Positions 1 through 24,874 of a stretch of DNA of 27,851 bases are shown here, one piece after another. The translations under genes and the position numbers were made by a program. Source of the DNA: a virus; the IMG/VR virus record IMGVR_UViG_3300037584_000446, positions 1-27,851 of that record; one strand, given 5' to 3'. How positions within the stretch are numbered: the first letter of the stretch is position 1; every line of letters begins with the position of its first letter. The notes beneath the pieces were generated by a model. It was not told the origin of the DNA. It saw only the letters and a list, made by a program, of their open reading frames with translations, and did no database searches.

Positions 1-3000
1 GACCTTTTCAATATGTCAAGAGCCTGGTCACCCGCAAACTTTTTAGTTCTGTTTTTTTCTAGCCTATTTATTTCAGCAAGGGCTTGTTTCTTTGTTAATT
101 CACCCTTTCTTAGTTTCTCATTAACCTCTGCCTTTTTCTTGTCGATGTTTAAGTCTTCAAGTATAATAACAGTGCTTCCTTTCTTACCTTTCGACTCCTT
201 GATAACTCTAAAATCCCCATCTGGTGTCGATACAATTCTACCTTCAATTCTTCGGTCTTCCTGAATATTAAAGTCAGATATGGATGACATCATTACATCT
301 TCAGTGTTGCCAATCTCTACAACCTTCTTTTTCCTTTTCTTTCTTTGGTTTAACTCCTCTGTTTTTGTATCTAGCTGAGACTGTAACTTAGCCTTCATGC
401 CTTCGTCGTCAATATCCTCAATGGTCTTAGTTAATGTCTCAACCTCTTGTTCTAAACCAGAAACATCCTCTTCTAACTCCATGCTTTCAAAGATGACCGT
501 ACCCGGATTATTAGGGTCTTGCTTTATAACGCCCCTTTCTCCGTCTATCGTAACCTCTTTACCTATTACATTTCCTACCGTCCTCTTGTCTTTATCTACT
601 TGACTTGTTTCCTTCTTCTCAGTTTGGAATATGCTATCAAGTTCATCCATTCTATTTTCCGGTACTTTTTCAGTCTCTTGTTCAATAACTTGTTCAACTT
701 CAGTACCATCTAACGTATATGTATAATACTCATCTAGTGACACCTCTTTCTTTTTCCCAATCGGTAGACCAAAGACAGTGTCTCTAAATGTTACATCCTG
801 ATCTCCCCTTTCTACCTTCTCTGCACGATCACGATACTGCTCAGGTACGTCCTCTAATGTCTCAGCATAAAACACTTGACTCTCCCCGGATTGCATATTC
901 AAGACATCAGAAACAGATACTTCAGCATCTACTTCGTCTAAAACGGCATCAATTCTAGACTCTATATTTTTGAGTTCCTTTTTGTCATTCTTATTGAACA
1001 CATCATCAGTCCTTTCAACTTTTTCAGACAAAGACTGATGCTCCATTAGTAATCCTAATAGCTGTTTTTTCTTACGTGGATTTTCAACTCCCTCCGGCAT
1101 TTTTTGCAACGCCCCATTTAGCCTATTGTAATCACCCAATATTCTATCCTTTTCTTTCGTTGTAATCTCTCCATTTACTACTTGCTGTTCAAGTTTAGAA
1201 GTAACAAAGTCTAAGTACTTACTATCCTTTGACATAGCTTCAAAAATCTTAAACGTATTGTCATCTATTTCAGAAAGTTCTTTTGTACCTAAAGAATATG
1301 ACAGTGCTTTTGGTGTAGCCATCATAGCACCACCCATACCCTCAGCAATACCAGCCATAAAAACCTGCTGAACAGCCTCTCCTATGGTTTCAGGTGTCTC
1401 AAACATGTCAGTACCTTTTACTGTATTGTAAAGCTCCTTCAGACCTATGTCAGCAACCTCTTGTAATGCACCTGTTTCAAACTCAGCAACACCACCAGTA
1501 CCCATTCGTAATAGACCCTTTGCCGTCAAAGATTTTACTTCTTGGCTTATAAACTCATTGACAGTTCGCATTGACGCTGGATTACGATTGAAAGCACGAT
1601 ATATTAATGATGTCATTGGCTTCGACTTCAATACGTTGGTAAAACCAAATTTCTCCAATGCACCAACAGCACTACCAATAGCCAAAGAAACGCCCATCTT
1701 TTCCATTTCAGATACATTGTCAAACTCAGGGTTATCCCTCATCTCTTGATTTACGTATTGAGAAGACATCGCAATAGTTCCAATCATGCCACCCGCATAT
1801 GCTGCAGGTAAGAACTCTACCACACCAAAAAATACATTACCTACACCTTTTGCACTAAATAAATCAGCCTGCTGATAATCTTTTAAGTATTCCTCTGTAG
1901 ATGTTCTGCCAAGTACAGAAAAAGGAGCTTCTTCTGCCATCTCTACCAATCCTTTGTCTAAGTCTCTAGACTCTAACGTAGCGATATCTGAGAATGGATT
2001 AACAAACTTCTCCTCTTTACCATACTTTACCTCTTTTAATACTTCGTCAAAGTCTTGACCTTTTTTATACGTCCTACTCAATCCAAAAGCTATAGGTATT
2101 GACACAAATTCAGATCCAAAACCTAATAGCTTTCCTACTGATGATTTTAATTGGTCATATGTTTGCCCAAAAAAAGTACCTTGCTCTCTTCTCATAAGAG
2201 CATACTCGCCAACCATTGCGTCATATTCTTTACCTTTTTCGCTTAGACCTTCTTTTATACTAGTTATTTCGGCTTCTAACTTAGCGTAGTTTTCTTTTCT
2301 TGCAGCTAGTTCTTGGAACTCAGGCGTGCCTTTTTGAACTTGTTTAGACAACCTATTTAACTCGTCTCTTTCTTGGTTTAACTCCTTTTCCTTTTGTAAA
2401 TACGTTTTTGCTTGAGCATTAAAGCCTTTAGTGTAATCATCTAACTCTTTTTCATTGATGATTTTCTTTTTGGTCTCATCTACATTTATAGATACATCTC
2501 TATTTTGCTTTATGAATGACTTTATTTCAGACTCTTGCTCTTCAGATCCAAACACTAAATTCTCCAATCCTAAAAAGTCAATTGCTTTTGGTATATTTTT
2601 TATAGTAACAACCTTCTCTTCTCCATTAGGAGCGGTTATTTTAACGTTGTCTCTAATTCCAGCTTCTTCAAACTTAAAATTATAATCACCAAATAAAGCA
2701 TTAAGTTCGGGAACTAATTCTTCTTCACTTTTGTTAGCAACATCTATCCTACTAAGCTTATCTTTTAATATCTTAGTTTGCTCATCTTCTGGTAAAACAC
2801 CAAAAGACTCTTGATACTCTTCAAGTGTCGGTGGAGCTTCTTCAACAGGTTTCTCAATCTTCTCTGAACCATCCGATATACCATCTTCCGATTCTGAATC
2901 GAAATTTTTTTTTTCGACTAATGTGCCTTTAGTTATTGGTTGTTCGCCAAGACCATAAACAGAGTTAAATTGTTCAATACTTGAAACATCATATTTAGGC

Positions 3001-3131
3001 TCTACTATTTGCTCGTAAAAAAGTTTTCTTTTTGTTCCATCTGACAAATACGATTTAAAGTCGTCTACTGACCCTATGTCATAATCATTCTTTAAATCAT
3101 TATAAAGCTCTAGTATTGCTTGTTCATTCAT
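1..3131 (-). CDS. Large internal virion / cargo-type protein (3' end outside window)
   Basis: The frame stays open from the ATG at 3131 to the left edge, giving at least 1043 residues with no stop, so the C-terminus is missing. The start lies 10 bases after the preceding stop. By my translation, residues about 225-312 are charged and heptad-rich (coiled coil). Glycine/alanine-rich hydrophobic stretches follow near residues 327-350, 433-465, 477-497 and 580-607, including FFGVVEFLPAAYAGGMIGTI. The rest is highly charged and rich in E and K, with no catalytic motif that I recognise. It follows two other internal-virion-like genes. By analogy with T7 gp14-gp15-gp16 and crAss-like cargo proteins, I infer a protein packaged in the head and ejected into the host, whose hydrophobic parts may meet membranes. 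A run of ten A bases lies in codons 69-72. A giant polyvalent protein with an enzymatic C-terminus outside the window is equally possible. Confidence 0.7.
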   Translation of the reverse strand, partial: MNEQAILELYNDLKNDYDIGSVDDFKSYLSDGTKRKLFYEQIVEPKYDVSSIEQFNSVYGLGEQPITKGTLVEKKNFDSESEDGISDGSEKIEKPVEEAPPTLEEYQESFGVLPEDEQTKILKDKLSRIDVANKSEEELVPELNALFGDYNFKFEEAGIRDNVKITAPNGEEKVVTIKNIPKAIDFLGLENLVFGSEEQESEIKSFIKQNRDVSINVDETKKKIINEKELDDYTKGFNAQAKTYLQKEKELNQERDELNRLSKQVQKGTPEFQELAARKENYAKLEAEITSIKEGLSEKGKEYDAMVGEYALMRREQGTFFGQTYDQLKSSVGKLLGFGSEFVSIPIAFGLSRTYKKGQDFDEVLKEVKYGKEEKFVNPFSDIATLESRDLDKGLVEMAEEAPFSVLGRTSTEEYLKDYQQADLFSAKGVGNVFFGVVEFLPAAYAGGMIGTIAMSSQYVNQEMRDNPEFDNVSEMEKMGVSLAIGSAVGALEKFGFTNVLKSKPMTSLIYRAFNRNPASMRTVNEFISQEVKSLTAKGLLRMGTGGVAEFETGALQEVADIGLKELYNTVKGTDMFETPETIGEAVQQVFMAGIAEGMGGAMMATPKALSYSLGTKELSEIDDNTFKIFEAMSKDSKYLDFVTSKLEQQVVNGEITTKEKDRILGDYNRLNGALQKMPEGVENPRKKKQLLGLLMEHQSLSEKVERTDDVFNKNDKKELKNIESRIDAVLDEVDAEVSVSDVLNMQSGESQVFYAETLEDVPEQYRDRAEKVERGDQDVTFRDTVFGLPIGKKKEVSLDEYYTYTLDGTEVEQVIEQETEKVPENRMDELDSIFQTEKKETSQVDKDKRTVGNVIGKEVTIDGERGVIKQDPNNPGTVIFESMELEEDVSGLEQEVETLTKTIEDIDDEGMKAKLQSQLDTKTEELNQRKKRKKKVVEIGNTEDVMMSSISDFNIQEDRRIEGRIVSTPDGDFRVIKESKGKKGSTVIILEDLNIDKKKAEVNEKLRKGELTKKQALAEINRLEKNRTKKFAGDQALDILKR

Positions 3132-3141
3132 TTTAATGCTT

Positions 3142-5307
3142 TTATTGTTGTCCTGGTAATTTAGGCTTTTGAAGATTTCCAGTAGTAGTTGCCCCTGCTT
3201 GAACCGCATCTTTGTTCCCAAGTTTTATCATCATGTCAACTACTAGGTCTAGTTTAGTTTGATCGTTCATTATATCATCAACAGTATAGTTTTTACCATT
3301 TATAACTAAGACAGTAGAGTTCGCATCCTTATCAGCACTATTCAAAACTTTTGAATAATCACTAGCAGCAGAAATTATCTTTCCAGCTACTTCATCTCTA
3401 TTTACAACATCTTCACCATATGTTCCCTTGTTAATTTCTAAAGGAATTAAATCAAATTGTTTCTTAGCATTAGCCATACCCGTGCCATCATAAAATACAT
3501 AATCAACCCTATTACCTCGTTGATCGGCTACATACATATTTGTCACTCCACCACTAGGAGCTGTTCCGACAGTAAGGCTTAACCTGTCATCACCAACAAG
3601 GTTATTATTGTATTGACCATAAACCCTAGACGTTACAGTACTTATACTTTCAGCCCTTTGCGTATCGTTTGTCATCCCTGCCAAAGCAGATTTATTAACT
3701 TCTCCGTAAGCGGCATCCAACTCAGTCATTACTACATTACCGTCATCATCTAAACTATATATCTTCATATTCGGAACAGAAAAGTCAATAGTTCTTCCCG
3801 CTTGGTTTATCTCTGGATTGAACCCATTAGTTTTTCCGTAACCTTCGCCCCAATGCTTTTTACCTAACGCCTCTAGTTCATCGTTGCTTAAAACATCTTT
3901 CAATCCCTTAGGCAATATAAAGTTGATTGCAGTTACATAATCTGAAGGCTTCGAAAAGTTAATATCTTCTTTGAAAATTTTACCTCCTTTGTCGTTTCGG
4001 TAATATACAGTCAGCCCTCCAGGTTTTTTGTCAATATTAATCACAGCATTACCTTGATCATCAACTATTGGATTATTACCTATCAATGCATCATTAGCTG
4101 CTTGAGAAGCCGATGCATTAGAACCAAATTTAGACATATTGACCCAATGACGCATGTATGTGTCTATTTTATTTCGCTTTTGTTTCATTTCTTCTTTAAA
4201 CTCTTTCGTCGCTGTTGGTGTAAACGCTCTATTACTAGTAGAAGCAGTTGCCTTAACATCAATCTGCGCACGTATATTTGTTCTCAATGCCTCTTCTACT
4301 TGTTTTTCTTGCTCAGGCTTAAACACTGGAACACCCTCCTTACTACCTTTAGATGTATCTAAATATACATACCTACCTGTCTTGTCATTCTTAAACTGCT
4401 CATAATTATAAGTAGGTTCAATTTGCTGTCCATCTTTAGATTTAATATTAAAATCAGTAAGTAATGACATGGTGTTGTTTGGATTACTCATAAATGATTT
4501 AATAGTGTTGGTTTCCCATTTTTTATAACCATTTACCATTTGTTCATCTCCCGGAAGATAGTAATTACCCTTTTTAGCATCTGAGTTTTTTATGATTGTA
4601 TTTATACCACCTTCATACTTTGCCGCAGAAATAATAACTTCTTCCATCTCACCCAATGTACCTACTGCTGCTTGAGTTTTACCTTCTAAGTCAAATTTAT
4701 CAAACTTACCCTGTAGTCTATTTCTAAGCTCATTTACAGTCATAAAGTCATTAGGGTCTTTACTCATTTCATAAACACCATCTTTATTTTTCATCATTTT
4801 AGCAATAGACACCTTGAAATTAGTAGGGTTAATCATTGCTCTTGTGTTTTGGAAATTAGCCAATCCCTCAGCTTGACTCAACTGCCAAAACTCTCTATAT
4901 GATGACTCTTCATTTTTCCATCTCTTCAATCCCTCAGAGTATGCTGTTTGATATTCTTCGGCAATCTTAAACATCTGATCTGTCCCACTGACTAAATTAT
5001 CCCTAGCAAGAACATAGTCTTTAACTTTTAACTGACCGCTTTTTAGCAATCGCTCTTGCATTAACATTGCTTGTGTTGCATCATTTGAGAAGTTAGACAT
5101 ATACTCATTAGCATCAGTATACTCACCTTGTGGAGCATTAGCTAGTTGCTCCTCATAAGCTCTTGTTGCATCTTCTAATGCTTGTTTCTTATTCTCACGA
5201 AGCTGTACTTCGGTTTGCAACATTGTCGTAATGTCCTTACCGATTTGTGACCAATCAACAAAGCTGTCAGCCTCTCTCTCTGCGTATCCGTAAAATGTCT
5301 TTGCCAT
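3142..5307 (-). CDS. Internal virion / cargo protein candidate, 721 aa
   Basis: This 721-aa protein starts at an ATG 3 bases after the stop of the 369-aa gene and ends 10 bases before the giant gene, so the three form one unit. It has no signal peptide, no membrane segment and no nuclease or lysozyme motif that I can see. The N-terminal ~150 residues are helical and rich in Q, E and A (for example WSQIGKDITTMLQTEVQLRE). The middle and end are mixed alpha/beta with many N, D and K. Size, composition and position between a small Ala-rich protein and a giant protein resemble the middle member of an ejection-protein trio (T7 gp15-like role) or a crAss-like cargo protein. This is inference from context; I do not recognise a specific family domain. 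Confidence 0.65.
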   Translation of the reverse strand: MAKTFYGYAEREADSFVDWSQIGKDITTMLQTEVQLRENKKQALEDATRAYEEQLANAPQGEYTDANEYMSNFSNDATQAMLMQERLLKSGQLKVKDYVLARDNLVSGTDQMFKIAEEYQTAYSEGLKRWKNEESSYREFWQLSQAEGLANFQNTRAMINPTNFKVSIAKMMKNKDGVYEMSKDPNDFMTVNELRNRLQGKFDKFDLEGKTQAAVGTLGEMEEVIISAAKYEGGINTIIKNSDAKKGNYYLPGDEQMVNGYKKWETNTIKSFMSNPNNTMSLLTDFNIKSKDGQQIEPTYNYEQFKNDKTGRYVYLDTSKGSKEGVPVFKPEQEKQVEEALRTNIRAQIDVKATASTSNRAFTPTATKEFKEEMKQKRNKIDTYMRHWVNMSKFGSNASASQAANDALIGNNPIVDDQGNAVINIDKKPGGLTVYYRNDKGGKIFKEDINFSKPSDYVTAINFILPKGLKDVLSNDELEALGKKHWGEGYGKTNGFNPEINQAGRTIDFSVPNMKIYSLDDDGNVVMTELDAAYGEVNKSALAGMTNDTQRAESISTVTSRVYGQYNNNLVGDDRLSLTVGTAPSGGVTNMYVADQRGNRVDYVFYDGTGMANAKKQFDLIPLEINKGTYGEDVVNRDEVAGKIISAASDYSKVLNSADKDANSTVLVINGKNYTVDDIMNDQTKLDLVVDMMIKLGNKDAVQAGATTTGNLQKPKLPGQQ

Positions 5308-5310
5308 AGG

Positions 5311-6420
5311 TTACCTTCTGTTTATATTAAATGGGTCTAGTGGATTGTAAAAACCTGGTTGAGGACCATACTGTTCGCCTCTAAACTGAAATGGAGTAAA
5401 AGATCCTTGCCCGGGATAAAAAGTAGTTTGAAGCTCTAGCGGGGGAATGGGAGTCCTATAATCCATACCCATTAATGATTGATATGCTTCAGCAGGATCG
5501 ATCTTAGAAAAATCCTTGTATTTCAAGTCATATCTCAAGCTAGATGTTGGGTCATTAGGATCGAGATATATATTCATCCCTTTAGACTTTTGACCTAGCG
5601 TAGCTTGTATATTTTGTAACTGATTCGTCTCTAACGATCCTAAAAAGTCGTCGATTTGCTTTTGACTCATTTTACTAAAATCACCACCATATTGATTGTA
5701 TAAACTCAACTGTTCATTTGTCATATTCAAACGAGCTGGATCAACATCCATTAACGCCTCTCTAAAAGGCTTTTCACTCAAATCCATACCCACTGGACCT
5801 AATTGAGTAGGTTGCCCAGCTTGTTTTCTTTGTATTTTTGCTGCTAATCTCGCTTCTGGAGTTTTAGCAAACAAAGGAGCTAATGAAGCTGCTTGCGTCC
5901 CTAAACTAGTTAAACCAGCAAATCCTTGTTGAATAGCTTGAGCCTCAGCCCTAGCAGCATCAGATGCAGCTTGCTGCGCACCTTGAGCCTCCATTGTGTC
6001 TAACTGCACTCCAATATCTCTAAGCCTTGTATCTTCTCCAGCTACCAACTTGTCAAGTTGTGCTTGTTCTTGTTGCATAGCTGTAGCCACCTTCTCTTGA
6101 CCTGCTTGCTGTGCTAACTGAACACGACCAACACCTGCCGCTAATGATCTCTCATCACCCTCAGCTAATGCTTGAGTAGCCAATGCACCTTGAGCCAATA
6201 ACTCTCTTCTAGCTAATTCATATGGCTCTTTTTGAATACCAAGTTGCTCATAGTAATTCACGTCTAATTTTTTACGTGCTTCTTCCATTGCTTTTGCTGC
6301 TGCTTCCTCAGCTTCTCTTTTTAATCTTGCTTGCTCACCAGCTTGAGCGAAACTGCCAATTGTAGTTCCGGCTGTTACTGCTAAACCTACTCCTGCTGCT
6401 ATTGCTGTAAATCCTGCCAT
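5311..6420 (-). CDS. Alanine/glutamine-rich internal virion protein, T7 gp14-like role
   Basis: The 369-aa protein starts one base after the acetyltransferase stop (TAAtATG). It opens with a small-residue hydrophobic segment at residues 2-25 (AIAAGVGLAVTAGTTIGSFA) that could insert in a membrane. From about residue 27 to 180 it is a long helix-forming region very rich in A, Q and E, with LDVNYYEQLGIQKEPYELAR near residue 52 and RLRDIGVQLDTMEAQGAQQA near residue 132. I recognise these patterns from a conserved family encoded next to large internal proteins in marine and crAss-like phages. The C-terminal ~130 residues are proline- and aromatic-rich. A role as a small ejected protein that helps form a channel in the cell envelope is inferred from this architecture and from the two larger genes that follow. 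Confidence 0.7.
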   Translation of the reverse strand: MAGFTAIAAGVGLAVTAGTTIGSFAQAGEQARLKREAEEAAAKAMEEARKKLDVNYYEQLGIQKEPYELARRELLAQGALATQALAEGDERSLAAGVGRVQLAQQAGQEKVATAMQQEQAQLDKLVAGEDTRLRDIGVQLDTMEAQGAQQAASDAARAEAQAIQQGFAGLTSLGTQAASLAPLFAKTPEARLAAKIQRKQAGQPTQLGPVGMDLSEKPFREALMDVDPARLNMTNEQLSLYNQYGGDFSKMSQKQIDDFLGSLETNQLQNIQATLGQKSKGMNIYLDPNDPTSSLRYDLKYKDFSKIDPAEAYQSLMGMDYRTPIPPLELQTTFYPGQGSFTPFQFRGEQYGPQPGFYNPLDPFNINRR

Positions 6421-6421
6421 A

Positions 6422-6829
6422 TTATAATATTTTTATCATCTCTTGAGTGTATGAATCTGCTTCTATATATCCTAGTTCTTTATATGTCTCAATCAATCCT
6501 TTATGCTTTATCAAGGCGTAACAATACTTAAAACCAGAAGATTTACAAGTACCTGTCAATGTCTCTATCAATAAACCAATGGCTTGCCCCCTTTCCGGTT
6601 TCTTACGATAATTTTTATTTGATATTATCCAATCAACCCAAGCAACCTTTGAATTGGTAGCATACATAAACCCTGCACATATAGGAACGTCATCTTCTAA
6701 AACCATTAAACCACCCGTGCCATCAGCTGGTAAAAAGTCTTTTTGTGGAGCTTCCCAACCCCAATCTTTCCACCAATCTAACAATATTTTGTCATAGTCC
6801 GTTTCTATCAATGGTCTTATATTAAACAT
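6422..6829 (-). CDS. GNAT-family N-acetyltransferase-like protein
   Basis: This 135-aa protein has the layout of a small GNAT acetyltransferase: an N-terminal MFNIRPLIETDYDKI (beta1-alpha1), central strands GLMVLEDDVPICAGFMY and AWVDWIISNKNYR (beta2-beta4), then RGQAIGLLIETL in the position of the acetyl-CoA pyrophosphate-binding loop, and the C-terminal KGLIETYKELGYIEAD typical of GNAT ends. The canonical R/Q-x-x-G-x-G/A loop is only partly kept, so activity is uncertain. Substrate is unknown. It sits between a structural gene (14 bases upstream) and the Ala-rich internal protein (1 base downstream), so it is expressed with virion genes. Possible roles are modification of a virion protein or of a host target. 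The start follows an A/T-rich leader (TTTGTATCTTT) without a Shine-Dalgarno. Confidence 0.75.
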   Translation of the reverse strand: MFNIRPLIETDYDKILLDWWKDWGWEAPQKDFLPADGTGGLMVLEDDVPICAGFMYATNSKVAWVDWIISNKNYRKKPERGQAIGLLIETLTGTCKSSGFKYCYALIKHKGLIETYKELGYIEADSYTQEMIKIL

Positions 6830-6843
6830 AAAGATACAAATTT

Positions 6844-7662
6844 TTAAGGGAACGATTTCATTATCTCTGTCTCAACAGCAAACAACTCAACAGGAGTAGT
6901 AGCTGTATTGGTAAGAGTAAACTCGCAGAAGTGTCCCAATACTCCATAACTCTCTGCGTTTTGATTCTTAGCAAACAATATAAAATCGCCGTTATTTAGC
7001 ACTGGTGGACTAGAAGGGTCAATACTAACAGTCATACTATTATTACCTGCAGGTAAATTAATATTTAAAGCAGTAACAGTACCTATTAACACAGGTGTAG
7101 ATGTAGCATATATTTGATCGCCTATACTAAGTGAACTACCTATCTCTGTGGTTACAGCAAAGTTTATAGTATATGGATTAGATGCTGTTACTACTGTTGT
7201 ACAGTTTCCAATACCCGTCATTGACCTTAATGAATAATCACTTGATAATATCGGTGTATTGTTCTCTGTTCTTATATATGCAAACCATGCCCCCTCTTTC
7301 TTTTCAAAGAAACTAGCATCAATAAACCCAGTCTTTTGAATGTCAGTGTCAAACTGTCCTGACCATGCATCAGCAGCAGTTGCAAATGATGACTCAAGAT
7401 TAATGGTCTTAAATATCTTATTATCTAATGGTCCTTCATTAAATACACTTGTGATTAATGAATTATACTGCGATCCATAGAAATTGTTTCTAGGTACAGT
7501 CGCACCACCTATTGTCGTAGCAACATTGTGCTTGTATATATCACCTTTGTTAAATGTATAAAAGTGACTATTCATACCAATCATAAAGTCAGGTATGTAA
7601 CTATAGAACGAAGGGAATCCCTTGAACTTATCACTATATGTTAATGTGTATGTTGTAGACAT
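6844..7662 (-). CDS. Virion structural protein, 272 aa (tail/fibre-associated)
   Basis: The protein starts STTYTLTYSDKFKGFPSFYS and continues with FMIGMNSHFYTFNKGDIYKH, then a SLITSVFNEGPLDNKIFKT segment and FFEKKEGAWFAYIRTENN near residue 117. I recognise this series of motifs from a structural-protein family found in many marine phages. The C-terminal half (from about residue 155) is strand-rich and Thr/Ser/Asn-rich, typical of a beta-sandwich or small adhesin domain. No membrane segment or enzyme motif is visible. It begins 4 bases after the stop of the 347-aa fibre-like gene and is followed after 14 bases by the acetyltransferase gene. The exact place in the particle (tail, baseplate or fibre adaptor) cannot be read from the sequence. 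Confidence 0.65.
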   Translation of the reverse strand: MSTTYTLTYSDKFKGFPSFYSYIPDFMIGMNSHFYTFNKGDIYKHNVATTIGGATVPRNNFYGSQYNSLITSVFNEGPLDNKIFKTINLESSFATAADAWSGQFDTDIQKTGFIDASFFEKKEGAWFAYIRTENNTPILSSDYSLRSMTGIGNCTTVVTASNPYTINFAVTTEIGSSLSIGDQIYATSTPVLIGTVTALNINLPAGNNSMTVSIDPSSPPVLNNGDFILFAKNQNAESYGVLGHFCEFTLTNTATTPVELFAVETEIMKSFP

Positions 7663-8720: not shown

Positions 8721-11700
8721 TTAAGGTACACATGATGGTGTCGATGCAACAACTCCGTTTGCGTCAACTTGAATGACAGCAGCTCCAACTACTGAATAGA
8801 ATCCAGCACCAGCTAAAGTAGTACCATTAGCGTCTGTATATATTATATCACCAACACCAGGATTACCTGCTGATCCGCCCACAACCACATGGTAGTATGT
8901 TGTTACCGCACCGACTGTACATAATCCACTCGCATTCGTTGCTGAAGGAGCAGCTTGATAACTTTCCCAAGCAGACAATGCAGTAGGACAAGCCGGTGTT
9001 ATTTCAATCTCTGATTTATCACATGGGCTTATAATGGTCATTGTGGCTATACTTGGACTAGCGGCAGCTTTTGGTATAATCATCTTACATGTTCCTAACC
9101 CTGTAGCTTTTAAAAACACCGAAGTAGGATCTACCGTTACGCTCTTAATAGTTCCTGTTTTATTGAAACCATTACCATTAAATTGATAATCAATTAGTGA
9201 AGGAAAGGTAGACCCAGAAATGCTACAATCAAAAGCAGTTATACCCGTATACAATGGGTTAGCTGCCGGACTGTTTATGAAACCAAAGTTAGGAGAGTAT
9301 ATAGAATTGTATGTGACACCATTATACTCAACTTTCACACCATCAGGTACTCCTTTAAAATCAATATCTAAAACCACTGCACCCGTCGCTGACCCTAAAT
9401 CAATATTAACAGTATAAAACCCTCTAGAAGTATCCATAGATAATGTAGTACCACACGCAAGATTACACGCAGAGCATAAGGTGTTTATCTCTAACAATCC
9501 ACTTGTCTGTTTTCTATTGAATCCACCTGTTGAGTACCATCCGTCAGTAGCTTTTGTCGTTAAAGAAGAAGATGTATATACAGCCGTAGCTTTGTCTAGC
9601 GTTGGTCCATCTATGTAGTACGTAGCTGAAGTTCCACATGTGCAGCAAGCATCGTCTGCACTAGTATTAGAATAACAAAGTGTAACAGCTACAGGTTTTC
9701 TATAATCATATATAAGATACAAATTGTCGTTATTACTTCCTGAAGGCATTGTAAACGAACCCGTAAATACACCTCCACTACCTGATGCAGCAACATTTGA
9801 AGCAGCAGCCAACAACGATGCAATATCAGCTGGTGTGTTATTGTATAAAGTTGCTGTTCTTAATTGTGCAAAGTTATTGACAGAACTATCAAAAGCAAAA
9901 TTATCACTTTGAAGCCTATTGCTTATCAACTCGACCGTAGCTCCGTCTATAGGCACTATATTTCCACCTTGAGGACCTATGATTTTATTATACTGAGAAA
10001 CCAAAGGAGAAGCTGTGCCTTCTGCCAACGACACAAAATTAGAATGCAATGCTGAATTAAATGAACCTGAACTCCATCTATACTCATTGTGTATAGTCTT
10101 GTCAGAATCATTGTCATCAGATATACAAACCTGAAACACATTTAATGTATCTGCACTTGGGTTTTCTACTGTTATCTCTAAATCTAATGATGCATTTGGA
10201 TTTGGATCACCAGGAGGAGCGTAAACTATACTTACTGTTGCTGTTTGTGGATCAACGGTTGATTTATTAACTGTAAAACTACCTGTTCCTAAACCATTTA
10301 ACACTTCAACCACAGGAGGATTAGAGTCATATGTCACCACAACATTAAATACATCTCCGGGAGTTATACTTGAAACATTATATGAAACAGTACATAGTCC
10401 TACTGTTTGCCCTAAGTCAACAGTATAAGAAACAGATTTTGTAGGAGTGACTAAAAACTTTTGCTTTATCCCTCCCTCTACTAAAACTGGAGTAAAAGGT
10501 AGTTCTATGTTAGGAGATGAAAGGACATATTCTTTCATATATGGATCATACGCTCCTAGCTTTTGAGTGTTTGGAAAATCAATAAATAAATTCCTAAACC
10601 AAGACCCTAACCCAAAGTTAGATATTACTGTCAACTGGTCATTATTATACGATGATCCCTTTAGCTGTATTACTACACCTCTTTTAGAATCTGTAAAATA
10701 CTTATCGTATCCATAACTCGCAAAAGACTCTGGGTTATCACCTATACCATACTCTTCTAAACGAGCTATCTGAGTACCTAGCACTTCAGGAACTGATGTT
10801 ATTACACCTCCGGCTGCTGCATCTGACAATAGATTCTTACCCGCTAATACATATGATATTTTATCTTCTTGTAGAATAAGAATATCCGTAGCTCTAGCAA
10901 ATATTTTTTGTATTTCTCCAAATGATGGCTCAAGTGATTTAAAGTTCAATAAACCTAAATTAAATTCATTTAGATTATTAACATTAAAGCTATACACACC
11001 ACTATATGTTAAGTCTGAGAATCTATGAACCTCTCTAAAATCTTCACCTTTTAAAATAGCAGATGTTCTATTTCCAATAGACATCCTACTCCTTGTAACC
11101 GAGTCTCTTATCTTATAACTTTCTACACCATTACCAAAAGTAAAACAATTCTGAAATTCAGTTTCAATGATAGCTGGTAATGACGCTGTTTGAGTTTGCA
11201 CATTACCAGTGTGAAAACCATTTGTTATTGGATAAGACACTGATGACTCAAAGAAAATATCAGGAGCAGTATCTTGAGCTTCTGTCTCAAAAGCCAATAA
11301 TTCACCAGGGCGAGTCATCTTGCAATGTATTTTTAAAGATGAACTAATACCTGACGTTCCAAGAGACCTTACTATTAAAGATATAAAATTAGTAACAGGA
11401 TCTCTAAACCATTGAAAAGTGAAATCCGTAGATACTGGGGACAAAGTGTTTATAGCTCTTTGCGTAGCTGCATTCAAGTCAGTCTCTACAGTAGGTGTGT
11501 AGACAATGTTATTAAGAAAAAACCCAGGAGTTGGATCAACAGGTAATCCTGCACTACCCAAGCAAGATAAATTAGATATATTAGTATCTAAAACTTCTGA
11601 CCCAAACTTTAAATTATCGGCAATGTTATTAGTGTTCCACCAATTTATAATATCAGTATAATCAACTGTTGTGGTAAAACTTTTATCATATGTATAAGTT

Positions 11701-14219
11701 AAAGTGTAAAAAAGATTTGTACCCCCAGCACAAAAAGTACTTAAATAGTTTAACATCCAGTCGGGTAGTGAAATTTCAGCCTCTATAAAGAACTCTATCT
11801 TTGTTCCTCTAGGAATAGAATCTCCTAATGAAATCCTACCACTGCTAGTGTCAATATTATTAAACCCTTGATATACAATAAAAGGAGCTGATAAGATACC
11901 ATTCGAAATAGCGTTGTTATTTATCGTACTAGACTTTTCTCCAAAATCTAAAAATCCCAAAGCATTCCCCGTGTTATTTAAAACAAAGTTATTGTTCTTT
12001 GTCTTCATATAAACACCTGCAGGGGCTTTGATTATTTGATTGGTTATAGGATCTGTATGTTCTAAAAACCCACCTTCTTTAGCTTCTTTTTCTAATACAT
12101 CTACAAATACACAATTATTCAATGGTCCATTTCCATCTTTTTTTACAATCAAAGTGTCTCCAACTTCTACTTTTTGTGCGTTTTCTCCTTGAATTAAAAA
12201 AAAGTAACATGTACTTTCTGGGTCATAAAAATATATATTAGAGTAGATTGTTTCATATATATCTTTATTTTGTTTTATAGCAAATTTGTATCTAGTAGCC
12301 CAAGATGGTGGTAATTGATTAGGACCAATATTTACTCTTAAAAAGTTTTGAGTAGAACTGTTTGAGCAAGGTATATAGACTACATTATTTTTACTGACTA
12401 AAACAGTTGTTGATCTATTGTAATCATCCATATATATTATACCAACTTCATAATCTCTGTTACTGTGCAAACTTGGATTATCAGCTATGGATTGATACGA
12501 AGACGAAGCTGCTGTTATTTGATAATACTCAACAAACATATCTGTTCCTCCATCTTCTTGGTAAACACTTGCTATTAATTTTATAGTAACTTGATTTGGA
12601 GGAGTTGCCCCACCTATAGCCATTCCATCCAAAGCGTTGGATATACCACTTTCTATTTTAGTAAAAACTCTACCATTACCATCTACTTTTGTTAAAGGAA
12701 TTTCACAATTTACAATATCTGTAAAAGAAGTTCCACTACAAGATGTAGACGGAGGATTTACTTGACCATTCCTACCTACTACGTCATTAAAATCTTGATT
12801 AAATTGCAAGTCTTGTCCTGTTGGAAAATCTTGCGGAAAAGTATATGATAAAAAAATATTTTTAGAACTAGTTTGTAAAGAGGCAGAACTAGCAGTACCT
12901 GATACATTAAAGAAAGAATGATGACTAAATGAAAATTGAATATCTAATCTTCCCCCACTTTCTAATCCAACAGTATTTACAAGAGTGTTGAAATCAAAAA
13001 CCATTTCAGAATTAGGAATACTAGTTGAATTACCTCTAATACTATAAGCTCCCGATTGACGAGTTGTTGTTATTGTTTGTACATTTAATATGTTTGAAAT
13101 GTAATCTACTTCATACTCTAATTTTACATCATTTACATCAAACCCATCAGTGTAATTACCATACACCAATCGACTATCCATTATTGTTTGTGCCTTTGCT
13201 TTAATAGGTACGTTATCATATAGTCTCAATATTTCATTATCATCTAATATTGAATATATTTTGTTATTTGAGAAATCATAGGTTCTATCTTCATTATCTC
13301 CAAATCCCAATTCTTCTTTGTCGAGTTTTTCAATTATTTTTATTACAGAATTACTAGACTCTTTAAACAATAAATCAATACCAATAACAAGTTCGCTACC
13401 AGTATTAAAATTTATAATTGCAGTATCAAAAGAATTTTCCATACCGTCGTTTAGATATGTGCTTTGATCTAACACAAAAGCCTTTGGTATAAAAGCCACA
13501 TCACTAAACTGAGAGGTAGCAGAATACATATCATCAGCATATCGATATCTATAAGCAAAACAGATAAACTTATCCTCTAAAAAATTCTGTTCAGAACCCC
13601 TATTTAACAAGGTAAAAGCTGGACTATTTACTGGTGGTTTTTTTACAACCAATAAAGACTCTGCTAATAAAGCAGCAGCAGCAGAGCTACCTCCGTCTAT
13701 ATTAGTGGCAGGATACGCATAGCTACTAGTTACATTTATAAATCTCGGTTGATTAAAATTATCTGTAAAAAATAATAAGTCATCAATCTTATCAACACCT
13801 GTTATTAAATATTGTGAATTAAAATTCAAAGTAGTGTTTGTGCCACCTCCATCATCTACACTTATCACATGATATTTAACTGAATTGTTTATCATATTAT
13901 ACGAGACAATCATATCAAGCTTATTAGTAGCTTGTCCTCCCGTATGTGCAGAGTCAGTAACAAACCAATATATGGTGTCATTAGCTCCGTCTTCAAAAGC
14001 ACCTATACACTTTGCACTAGAACTTAAAGTTGTGTTTTCGTATCTTAAAGTAGTAAGTCTCTCGTTACCTCTACTATTTTCTACAGCACCTATCTCAGAA
14101 AGCTCAGTAGTACCTACTCTAACATTTAATGCATCTATATACTCACCATTAGGAACAAGTCTTTCGTCAAGACCTTTGTTCATTTTACCTTTGATAAAGT
14201 TCCGCTGTAACTTAGCCAT
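8721..14219 (-). CDS. Muzzle / tail stabilization protein, crAss-like, 1832 aa
   Basis: The N-terminus carries the hallmark of the crAss-like stabilization or muzzle protein: RNFIKGKMNKGLDERLVPNG followed by EYIDALNVRVGTTELSEIGA and the VEN..GN motif (residues ~5-55). In crAss-like virions this protein forms the distal part of the short tail. The next ~1300 residues are strand-rich with many N, T and S. About residues 1320-1450 look like an Ig-like or fibronectin-like insertion (FTVNKSTVDPQTATVSIVYA). Residues ~1520-1832 are cysteine-rich (ACCTC, CSACNLAC) with two related YY...VYT...G-W/F-Y modules, suggesting surface adhesin domains. The gene starts 1 base after the ring-protein stop and is followed after 10 bases by a fibre-like gene. 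At 1832 aa it is long for the family as I know it, mainly through the C-terminal extension. No signal peptide or enzyme motif is visible. Confidence 0.85.
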   Translation of the reverse strand: MAKLQRNFIKGKMNKGLDERLVPNGEYIDALNVRVGTTELSEIGAVENSRGNERLTTLRYENTTLSSSAKCIGAFEDGANDTIYWFVTDSAHTGGQATNKLDMIVSYNMINNSVKYHVISVDDGGGTNTTLNFNSQYLITGVDKIDDLLFFTDNFNQPRFINVTSSYAYPATNIDGGSSAAAALLAESLLVVKKPPVNSPAFTLLNRGSEQNFLEDKFICFAYRYRYADDMYSATSQFSDVAFIPKAFVLDQSTYLNDGMENSFDTAIINFNTGSELVIGIDLLFKESSNSVIKIIEKLDKEELGFGDNEDRTYDFSNNKIYSILDDNEILRLYDNVPIKAKAQTIMDSRLVYGNYTDGFDVNDVKLEYEVDYISNILNVQTITTTRQSGAYSIRGNSTSIPNSEMVFDFNTLVNTVGLESGGRLDIQFSFSHHSFFNVSGTASSASLQTSSKNIFLSYTFPQDFPTGQDLQFNQDFNDVVGRNGQVNPPSTSCSGTSFTDIVNCEIPLTKVDGNGRVFTKIESGISNALDGMAIGGATPPNQVTIKLIASVYQEDGGTDMFVEYYQITAASSSYQSIADNPSLHSNRDYEVGIIYMDDYNRSTTVLVSKNNVVYIPCSNSSTQNFLRVNIGPNQLPPSWATRYKFAIKQNKDIYETIYSNIYFYDPESTCYFFLIQGENAQKVEVGDTLIVKKDGNGPLNNCVFVDVLEKEAKEGGFLEHTDPITNQIIKAPAGVYMKTKNNNFVLNNTGNALGFLDFGEKSSTINNNAISNGILSAPFIVYQGFNNIDTSSGRISLGDSIPRGTKIEFFIEAEISLPDWMLNYLSTFCAGGTNLFYTLTYTYDKSFTTTVDYTDIINWWNTNNIADNLKFGSEVLDTNISNLSCLGSAGLPVDPTPGFFLNNIVYTPTVETDLNAATQRAINTLSPVSTDFTFQWFRDPVTNFISLIVRSLGTSGISSSLKIHCKMTRPGELLAFETEAQDTAPDIFFESSVSYPITNGFHTGNVQTQTASLPAIIETEFQNCFTFGNGVESYKIRDSVTRSRMSIGNRTSAILKGEDFREVHRFSDLTYSGVYSFNVNNLNEFNLGLLNFKSLEPSFGEIQKIFARATDILILQEDKISYVLAGKNLLSDAAAGGVITSVPEVLGTQIARLEEYGIGDNPESFASYGYDKYFTDSKRGVVIQLKGSSYNNDQLTVISNFGLGSWFRNLFIDFPNTQKLGAYDPYMKEYVLSSPNIELPFTPVLVEGGIKQKFLVTPTKSVSYTVDLGQTVGLCTVSYNVSSITPGDVFNVVVTYDSNPPVVEVLNGLGTGSFTVNKSTVDPQTATVSIVYAPPGDPNPNASLDLEITVENPSADTLNVFQVCISDDNDSDKTIHNEYRWSSGSFNSALHSNFVSLAEGTASPLVSQYNKIIGPQGGNIVPIDGATVELISNRLQSDNFAFDSSVNNFAQLRTATLYNNTPADIASLLAAASNVAASGSGGVFTGSFTMPSGSNNDNLYLIYDYRKPVAVTLCYSNTSADDACCTCGTSATYYIDGPTLDKATAVYTSSSLTTKATDGWYSTGGFNRKQTSGLLEINTLCSACNLACGTTLSMDTSRGFYTVNIDLGSATGAVVLDIDFKGVPDGVKVEYNGVTYNSIYSPNFGFINSPAANPLYTGITAFDCSISGSTFPSLIDYQFNGNGFNKTGTIKSVTVDPTSVFLKATGLGTCKMIIPKAAASPSIATMTIISPCDKSEIEITPACPTALSAWESYQAAPSATNASGLCTVGAVTTYYHVVVGGSAGNPGVGDIIYTDANGTTLAGAGFYSVVGAAVIQVDANGVVASTPSCVP

Positions 14220-24061: not shown

Positions 24062-24314
24062 ACCCTTGCTTTGTATTTATGTTTTCAGCAATTGTTTTAG
24101 TTGATTCAATTTTCTCTTTCTCTTCGTCTATCTTATCCAATATTGCAAATGCATCAAATATTGCCAACTTCTTTGTAGCTGCTGCGTTCTTTAGCCGGTC
24201 CGCTGCTAATTCATCCTCTGGATCTGGCTTGATAATTTCTTCCTCTGCCACCTTTATTAGATGATCAACAGCTTTATAACCAGCTTCAATTATTCTTTTC
24301 TTTTTGTCTTTCAT
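24039..24314 (-). CDS. Candidate small terminase subunit, 91 aa
   Basis: This small, almost wholly helical, charged protein has a basic N-terminus (MKDKKKRIIEAGYKAVDHLI), a linker with acidic residues (IIKPDPEDELAADRL), and a second helix KNAAATKKLAIFDAFAILDK followed by a heptad-like EEEKEKIEST region. It lies directly before terL and overlaps it by 23 bases, and its own ATG overlaps the previous stop (ATGA). Position, size and helical character resemble small terminase subunits, which bind the packaging site and regulate TerL. I see no clear helix-turn-helix, so the assignment rests on context. An alternative is a small packaging or assembly accessory protein. Confidence 0.5.
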   Translation of the reverse strand: MKDKKKRIIEAGYKAVDHLIKVAEEEIIKPDPEDELAADRLKNAAATKKLAIFDAFAILDKIDEEKEKIESTKTIAENINTKQGFAERRSK

Positions 24315-24874
24315 AGGACCATAGATATTTGATTATCAAAAAGTCTATACATCCTCTCTCCATCAATAACAAACTCATAGTTACAGTTCGGCTTATAACC
24401 TACTATACTCCCTTTGTCTACACCCTTACTCAACATGTATGCATTTGGATATAGCATCTCGCCCATCAAAGGCTCTTCCTTGTCATTAGTGTCTATGCTC
24501 TTTTTAATTTTATCAATAGGCTTTATAAAACAATACCTATCGTGAGCGAACCACTTGCCATCTCGACCATACATGTAGAACTGACTATTGTCTACAAAAA
24601 ATAAATCGTCTTTTAAAAAACTTCTTCCACTCTTCTTTCTACCATACATGTCATTGTAAAACTTAAATACATTGTGATGTACAACCAATGAGTCTCCAAC
24701 TTGAATGTCTCCATTATAGTTAACAGGTGTCGAAACAACTACAGCAATCCTATTGGATGCCTTATGATTCTCCTCAGAAGTATTAACTATAAAGTCAACA
24801 CCCTCAATATCTTTACTGCCCACATAACGATTACCTCCCGATGCTCTTACTATAAAGCTATACGGTGATTTCAT
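24311..24874 (-). CDS. GroES-like co-chaperonin, apparently two tandem Cpn10-type domains
   Basis: The 187-aa protein reads like two GroES chains in tandem. Residues ~5-103 contain DFIVNTSEENHKASNRIAVV in the mobile-loop region, IQVGDSLVVHHN (residues 57-68, GD motif) and FFVDNSQFYMYG as the last strand pair. Residues ~111-187 repeat the order: RYCFIKPI, GEMLYPNAYMLSKGVDKGSI, then YEFVIDGERMYRLFDNQISM, matching the C-terminal half of GroES (GD-V-x-F ... IDNEE ... ESDILAIV). GroES is about 97 aa and T4 gp31 about 111 aa, so a double-length form is unusual; plant chloroplast Cpn20 is a known tandem analogue. I infer that it caps host GroEL to fold the capsid or another virion protein. It overlaps its downstream neighbour by ATGA and follows TAGTATG. 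The homology is read by eye. Confidence 0.7.
   Translation of the reverse strand: MKSPYSFIVRASGGNRYVGSKDIEGVDFIVNTSEENHKASNRIAVVVSTPVNYNGDIQVGDSLVVHHNVFKFYNDMYGRKKSGRSFLKDDLFFVDNSQFYMYGRDGKWFAHDRYCFIKPIDKIKKSIDTNDKEEPLMGEMLYPNAYMLSKGVDKGSIVGYKPNCNYEFVIDGERMYRLFDNQISMVL

Follow-up and report, generated by a model that had tools for sequence, protein, structure and literature searches.

A predicted ejection-protein cassette with an N-terminally tagged giant protein in a podovirus-type phage related to phi38:1 and phi40:1

Gene organization of the cassette

In this work, the viral contig record IMGVR_UViG_3300037584_000446 (27,851 bases, the whole of which is called the window) was analyzed for a gene cassette at its left end. 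The cassette lies on the minus strand and comprises four genes, which encode, in reading order, an acetyltransferase-like protein of 135 amino acids (aa) (6422..6829; named after the annotation of MW202828), a complete small protein of 369 aa (5311..6420), a complete mid-sized protein of 721 aa (3142..5307), and a giant protein that runs off the left end of the contig, so that its N-terminal 1043 aa are in view (3..3131). Judging from sequence comparison, this late cassette probably encodes virion-borne ejection proteins of a podovirus-type phage, and the giant is probably an ejected, membrane-inserting and N-terminally tagged protein. The small protein, conserved over its N-terminal ~190 aa, matched phrog_13764 "virion structural protein" (E 7.9e-13), and the mid protein matched phrog_35506 (E 1.3e-24). 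The mechanical frame of the giant (3..3221, 1073 aa) starts at a TTG inside the mid gene, and the ATG at 3131, 10 bases past the mid-gene stop, is the likely start. The initial annotation had read a three-gene ejection module here, with frames of 369, 721 and at least 1043 aa rising in size along the operon. The trio and its frames hold, and so do their order and rising size, also in relatives (mid behind small in 45/58 loci), whereas the count of three does not, as a fourth member lies upstream (6422-6829).

The cassette was surveyed with iterated profile searches in 98 loci plus the window (2768 frames; collected loci are labelled L plus a number), and 58 small, 46 mid, 28 giant N-terminal and 39 acetyltransferase-like family members were recruited. 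A mid-family frame was found at most 60 bases downstream of the small frame in 45 of the 58 loci, window included; more than 400 bases of downstream sequence were available in 54/58, and two of the 45 positives had less. The acetyltransferase-like family was present upstream of the small frame in 37/58 loci, at most 60 bases away in 32 of those 37. Several other loci have a frame of 170-180 aa upstream of the small gene that was not recruited by the acetyltransferase-like profile, and three (L019, L023, L027) have no frame of at least 80 aa in its place, therefore the first cassette gene is not universal. Its product matched no Pfam family even at E 10. Behind the giant, the next frame was on the opposite strand in 15 of the 16 fetched regions, out of 18 with complete giants, that contain further frames of at least 100 aa there; L115 is the exception.

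Relationship to virion proteins of phi38:1 and phi40:1

Phages phi40:1 and phi38:1 infect Cellulophaga and belong to Callevirus (Pervagoviridae). The records of phi40:1 gp097-gp101 carry the note "annotation based on experimental MS/MS proteomics analysis" (MS/MS, tandem mass spectrometry), and the mid protein of phi38:1 is 100% identical in phi40:1. The underlying proteomics of phi40:1 is reportedly that of Holmfeldt and colleagues in 2013; the MS/MS basis used here is the record note. The small profile (47 window-group members) and the acetyltransferase-like profile, both built without any member of the phi38:1 group, matched phi38:1 gp099 (E 1e-12) and gp098 (E 1e-7), respectively. Moreover, the mid family, to which the window protein belongs, matched the profile of nine Pervagoviridae/Pachyviridae-type mid proteins (probability 95.3, E 2.4e-8), 18 complete giants (aa 101-1000) matched the corresponding profile of nine giants (96.2, E 2.1e-9), and the giant tags of the two groups matched each other (92.3, E 5.5e-7), against E 0.48-0.67 for control profile pairs of unlike families. 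By BLAST, the phi38:1 giant matched those of L088 (27% over 560 aa, E 3.6e-36) and phi13:2 (24% over 626 aa, E 1.1e-11), and the L114 giant matched that of L088 (E 5e-7). By sequence, then, the cassette corresponds to phi38:1/phi40:1 gp098-gp101, directly for the small and acetyltransferase-like proteins and through profiles of intermediates for the mid and giant proteins. The same four genes stand there in the same order behind a muzzle-like gene, although the giant has 1691 aa, its tag unit is LDEFGIPxKK and similarity is low. Because the phi40:1 counterparts carry the MS/MS note, the assignment of the cassette products to the virion is well supported, through this relative. Thus the virion ejection-type module proposed in the initial annotation is borne out by the match to gp098-gp101 and by hydrophobic zones that recur at like places, and the objection that these proteins might be absent from virions is answered for phi40:1, not for the window phage.

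Domain architecture of the giant protein

In the giant family the tag comes first, an alpha/beta domain and a coiled coil follow, and two hydrophobic zones, the second of them near the end, flank a long soluble middle. Behind the tag, the window giant has a small alpha/beta domain at aa 115-210 (2502..2789), supported by conserved positions in the relatives' consensus and by the AlphaFold2 model, and long helices at aa 227-316 (2184..2453; block pLDDT 50 to 85), which agree with the coiled coil noted earlier. The mean pLDDT of the whole model was 56.8, and helical parts outside 227-316 were of lower or mixed confidence. On the Kyte-Doolittle scale, exactly four hydrophobic stretches reach 0.9 (aa 330-353, 422-456, 479-501 and 586-605), and three reach 1.1. 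The four described initially are therefore present, at aa 331-353 (2073..2141), 423-456 (1764..1865), 479-501 (1629..1697) and 586-605 (1317..1376), although their number is not above chance for the composition (shuffle means 3.15 at 0.9 and 1.81 at 1.1). What is conserved is the position of two of them: at the aligned places in five relatives the mean hydropathy was 1.14 for aa 479-501 and 0.97 for aa 586-605, values reached by 0.2% and 1.1% of random segments, respectively, whereas the positions of the other two were unremarkable (8%). Over aligned windows, the hydropathy of the giant part in view correlated with that of the five relatives (r 0.40-0.60).

The five closest complete relatives, being the best matches of the window giant, are L120 (E 1.5e-55; 3388 aa), L109 (2755 aa), L118 (2530 aa), L115 (2400 aa) and L108 (3110 aa), and from their lengths the window giant probably has 2400-3400 aa. 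In total, 25 complete giants of 1479-3859 aa were compared, 18 from 21 fetched regions (1954-3499 aa) and seven others (MW202828, 3859 aa; elemo, 3694 aa; L088, 2107 aa; phi13:2, 1990 aa; L025, 1928 aa; phi38:1, 1691 aa; L043, 1479 aa). Their merged hydrophobic segments number 2, 26, 25, 5, 5, 5, 0, 5, 20 and 31 per successive tenth of length. With zone limits that were set after this distribution was seen, 105 of the 124 segments lie at 0.10-0.35 or at 0.80 and beyond of the length, against a circular-shift mean of 55.7 and a maximum of 78 in 5000 shifts, and this clustering supports a giant with two hydrophobic zones. A segment occurs within the last 450 aa in 24/25 complete giants, with elemo as the exception.

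Coiled coil and hydrophobic zones would also suit a tail tape-measure or scaffold-type protein that is not ejected, and weak fold matches to tape-measure proteins were obtained (best E 0.0078, probability 0.47). On the other hand, the related Calle and Gundel phages are described as podoviral with tails of ~23 nm, no long-tail tube family was recognized among the 20 window proteins scanned, and the phi40:1 counterpart is an MS/MS-annotated virion protein, unlike a discarded scaffold. We consider such a role very improbable.

The N-terminal tag

The first 60 aa of the window giant (2952..3131) form a tag of two degenerate helical-hairpin repeats, which was delineated by alignment, shuffling and an AlphaFold2 model of four short helices (block pLDDT 82-90), and KKN at aa 74-76 (2904..2912) occupies the aligned site of the family motif KKK. 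A tandem repeat in the first 75 aa was detected in 34/42 giants and in 4/250 control frames (frames of at least 300 aa, 250 sampled from 551), the criterion being 0/100 shuffles and z of at least 4, with 60 shuffles for the controls. Two of the four positive controls are low-complexity frames and one is, by position, the L097 giant. KK[KN] within the first 120 aa was found in 41/42 giants and 10/250 controls. The window tag is a weak case of the repeat, with 0/60 shuffles and z 4.2 in one test and 0/100 and z 3.5, below the limit of 4, in a second; the limit was also failed by the giants of L045, elemo, phi13:2, L010, L090, L096 and L121. As to selection, 24 of the 33 giants in an earlier tag count came from the giant-family profile search or were its MW202828 member, and the repeat was present in 12 of the 18 giants, among the 42, that were picked by position only. 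Compared by eye, the repeat unit differs among lineages: phi38:1 has LDEFGIPxKK, whereas the unit of L094 and L099 is of a different type. What seems to be maintained, or formed anew, is therefore the doubling as such.

A doubled lineage-specific peptide followed by KKK at the start of most of these giants is a new observation. Neither a description of this tag nor a naming of these genes as an ejection module was found in the literature covered (titles and the openings of abstracts, and passages of PMC13288928, PMC8776804, PMC7077304 and PMC5512222); subscription papers lay outside this coverage and its searches did not aim at all possible wordings, which makes it weak evidence of absence. 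The tag may act in loading or ejection. In T4, a capsid targeting sequence, a short N-terminal stretch, sends virion-internal proteins into the head. The likeness lies in a short N-terminal stretch on internal proteins, whereas the T4 sequence requires ~10 residues and is cleaved, and the giants usually carry a duplicated unit of ~25-35 residues plus KKK. A cleavage site at KKK plus an EDGS-like string was considered and set aside as too patchy (13/28 proteins in the first 200 aa, against 1/318 other 200-aa bins). It is conceivable, although we would not call it probable, that a two-copy docking peptide plus KKK, lineage-varying in its unit and constant in architecture, is a new virion-loading/ejection signal (twin tag), possibly also borne by a DarB-like giant of a Bacteroides phage, and that through such a signal any payload could be brought first to the head and from there to the host cell.

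The Bacteroides giant in question, gp55 of phage BKO1-TP3 (L100, 5630-17824), has a start that resembles the tag of the window giant, weakly so in the whole collection. This DarB-like start was not found in plasmids, and in phages at E up to 0.1 it matched only itself.

The C-terminal part and possible payloads

By their N-terminal bodies the giants form one single-linkage group; by their C-terminal parts they divide into two main classes and five singletons. A recombinational N/C mosaic was considered from this and is not claimed. The suggestion in the initial annotation that the unseen C-terminus may carry an enzyme found no backing: the C-terminus of the window giant is out of view, no enzyme was recognized at that of the five closest complete relatives, and a second hydrophobic zone stands there instead. 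No Pfam family exceeded its cut-off in the window part or in these five giants; weak matches below the cut-off to RNB, DraIII and Phage_L5_gp82 occurred in three of the five. The Pfam scan of the 1073-aa frame in view, which ends short of the C-terminus, detected no lysozyme domain, a domain that not every largest protein of T7-type modules carries. A payload domain is possible in some family members, as judged by LPD38 in one of 20 records (the genome of L105), a ParB-like match in one of 18 complete giants, in each of two libraries, and DUF3293 in elemo. LPD38 was rejected as a general C-terminal domain, being confined to 1/20 records, and the profiles of the two C-terminal classes miss that member.

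These domains bear on another explanation, that the giant is mainly a delivered effector (a polyvalent, DarB-like anti-defence or host-takeover cargo) and that the small and mid proteins form the channel without it. They are of polyvalent type, the giants vary from 1479 to 3859 aa with diverse C-terminal parts, and the tag resembles the start of the BKO1-TP3 "DarB-like antirestriction" protein with 40% identity over 62 aa (E 1.2e-6 in the 28-protein set; E 4e-3 in the whole collection). However, no Pfam effector domain exceeded its cut-off in the part of the window giant in view or in L108, L109, L115, L118 and L120, and the hydrophobic zones recur at both ends of the giants. We regard the effector explanation as unlikely.

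Comparison with known ejection proteins and proposed role

Just upstream of the cassette lie a protein of 272 aa with the crassvirus muzzle C-terminal domain (6844..7662, minus strand; PF25729, E 4.5e-17, 62.7 bits, cut-off 27) and, further upstream, a muzzle/stabilization-like tail protein of 1832 aa (8721..14219, minus strand; phrog_14478, E 4.3e-221), which matched the profile of crAss001 gp44 over 138 columns (E 3.8e-5, probability 70.9) and no family in a Pfam scan. The muzzle C-terminal domain is thus encoded in a separate gene, apart from the muzzle-like protein. In crAss001, the products of gp45-gp47, whose genes stand behind the muzzle gene, are virion cargo by mass spectrometry, and parts of gp45 were seen in the head and in the tail; in PMC10172136 the authors propose ejection before the DNA, partial unfolding and a channel made by gp45 and gp46. 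The closest positional parallel of the cassette is this gp45-gp46-gp47 series, as in both a muzzle gene is followed by genes for virion proteins (probable ones in the cassette), the last of which, as seen here in relatives, precedes a gene on the opposite strand. In crAss001 the gene of gp45, a protein of 842 aa, is annotated directly after that of gp44, whereas other genes lie between in the window. The PF25729 marker just upstream and the crassvirus cargo in the same place both support the ejection reading.

The giant thus holds the place of gp47, which is annotated as "putative RNA-polymerase subunit", and it might by the same position be a virion RNA polymerase subunit. However, no profile match of the giant to gp47 was obtained. 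D-hydrophobic-D-[GAS]-D is a polymerase signature; a scan of 28 proteins detected it in elemo and in the BKO1-TP3 fragment only, and thus neither in the part of the window giant in view nor in any of the 18 complete giants fetched, while looser DxDxD strings occur in several proteins. A polymerase is in our estimate a very improbable identity of the giant.

In gene order and rising size the cassette also resembles T7 gp13-gp14-gp15-gp16 (138/196/747/1318 aa; a gene of ~140-150 aa, then three rising sizes) and P22 gp14-gp7-gp20-gp16 (151/229/471/609 aa; a first small gene, then three rising sizes), so that the likeness to T7 gp14, gp15 and gp16 drawn initially stands for order and size, with no homology detected. 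Of the four comparators, T7 and P22 have such a first gene ahead of their trio (gp13 and gp14, respectively), while SP6 and phiKMV lack it. Among 52 comparisons the lowest E-value, 0.0066, was that of the acetyltransferase-like family with T7 gp13, and it was not significant. According to a review on ejection proteins, gp15-like proteins are mostly matched through size and synteny. By place, then, the cassette is the counterpart of crassvirus and T7/P22 cargo; profile searches and fold comparisons showed no common descent with these proteins. The one exception, a weak one, is that the mid model matched the fold of a 512-aa protein of cr131_1 (E 9.6e-3, probability 0.91), a phage that we take to be crAss-like. 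Alignments of the mid model and other parts by VIA-align were middling and limited to helical parts, with aa 225-318 of the giant matching unrelated coiled coils, and therefore nothing is claimed from them, also as to the fold of T7 gp15. Sequence searches of the PDB with the small, mid and tail profiles gave no match, nor did tblastn with the small protein in annotated phages.

Several results weigh against the ejection reading. The mid family was not significant against phi38:1 alone (E 0.035, probability 1.5), nor were the giants (E 0.0014 with probability 17.9, or nothing at E 0.31), so both links rest on profiles of intermediates. The elemo mid protein matched neither mid profile. The annotation of phi19:3 (Pachyviridae) calls the giant a "hypothetical protein", although it lists the adjacent small and mid proteins as "structural" by similarity. 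No homology was detected to crassvirus gp45 or gp46 with nine-member profiles of each, nor to the ejection proteins of T7 or P22 singly or to sets of T7, P22, SP6 and phiKMV, and the fold search with the mid model gave 0/200 PDB matches at E up to 1e-3. The zone limits are post hoc, and membrane insertion and channel formation by the giant are predictions.

We hypothesize that the small, mid and giant proteins are located close to the portal inside the head, that they exit before the DNA, partly unfolded, through the portal and the muzzle tail, and that they build a path across both membranes and the periplasm between them. The N-terminal tag would hold or aim the giant, which would insert in a membrane by the zone at ~10-35% of its length and by the other zone, close to its C-terminus (beyond the edge of the window), and its long soluble middle would bridge the periplasm or pass to the cytoplasm. 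The acetyltransferase-like protein may be an assembly or loading helper in place of T7 gp13. Most known ejection proteins belong to phages that infect Proteobacteria; a crassvirus was added in 2023. With a sequence-defined tag on the giant, loading and ejection would become open to direct tests in phi38:1 and other cultured relatives, and the tag could offer a means of protein delivery into Bacteroidota.

Genomic context and relatives

The minus strand carries the large frames of the window, in the reading order holin and amidase, GroES-like gene, terminase, portal, capsid-region genes, tail proteins and the cassette. A terminase search matched 87 phage records, and identities among the matches listed were 75.2% for MW202828, 46.0% for Flavobacterium elemo phages, 36-38% for Cellulophaga Baltivirus and Callevirus, and 31.4% for Tenacibaculum Gundel. 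The window is thus part of the genome of a podovirus-type phage, most likely one of Bacteroidota-type bacteria, and kin to MW202828, the elemo phages and Callevirus/Baltivirus. MW202828 (Podoviridae sp. ctfjg026) and the elemo phages, its nearest named relatives, have the same cassette with giants of 3859 and 3694 aa, although the window giant matches that of MW202828 only in short stretches. Relatives in viral contigs were reached through alignment of the neighbouring tail protein, which has relatives in at least 576 of 600 candidate viral-contig stretches, so that this is a large group with few cultured members. Peptide patterns used to look for the mid protein itself in viral contigs returned nothing. 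The GroES-like co-chaperonin gene lies near the terminase (24311-24874, minus strand; phrog_13932, E 3.4e-19). The cassette was also found on a 61.6-kb contig (L087/L120, WLWP01000006) binned as a Pseudomonadales metagenome-assembled genome; this contig may come from a phage and sit in the wrong bin, or it may hold a prophage. Moreover, in assemblies of Flavobacteriaceae and Myroides (L088, L089, L090, L092, L094, L096, L099) a small-family frame has mid-sized and giant frames behind it, which may belong to prophages or to contaminating phages.

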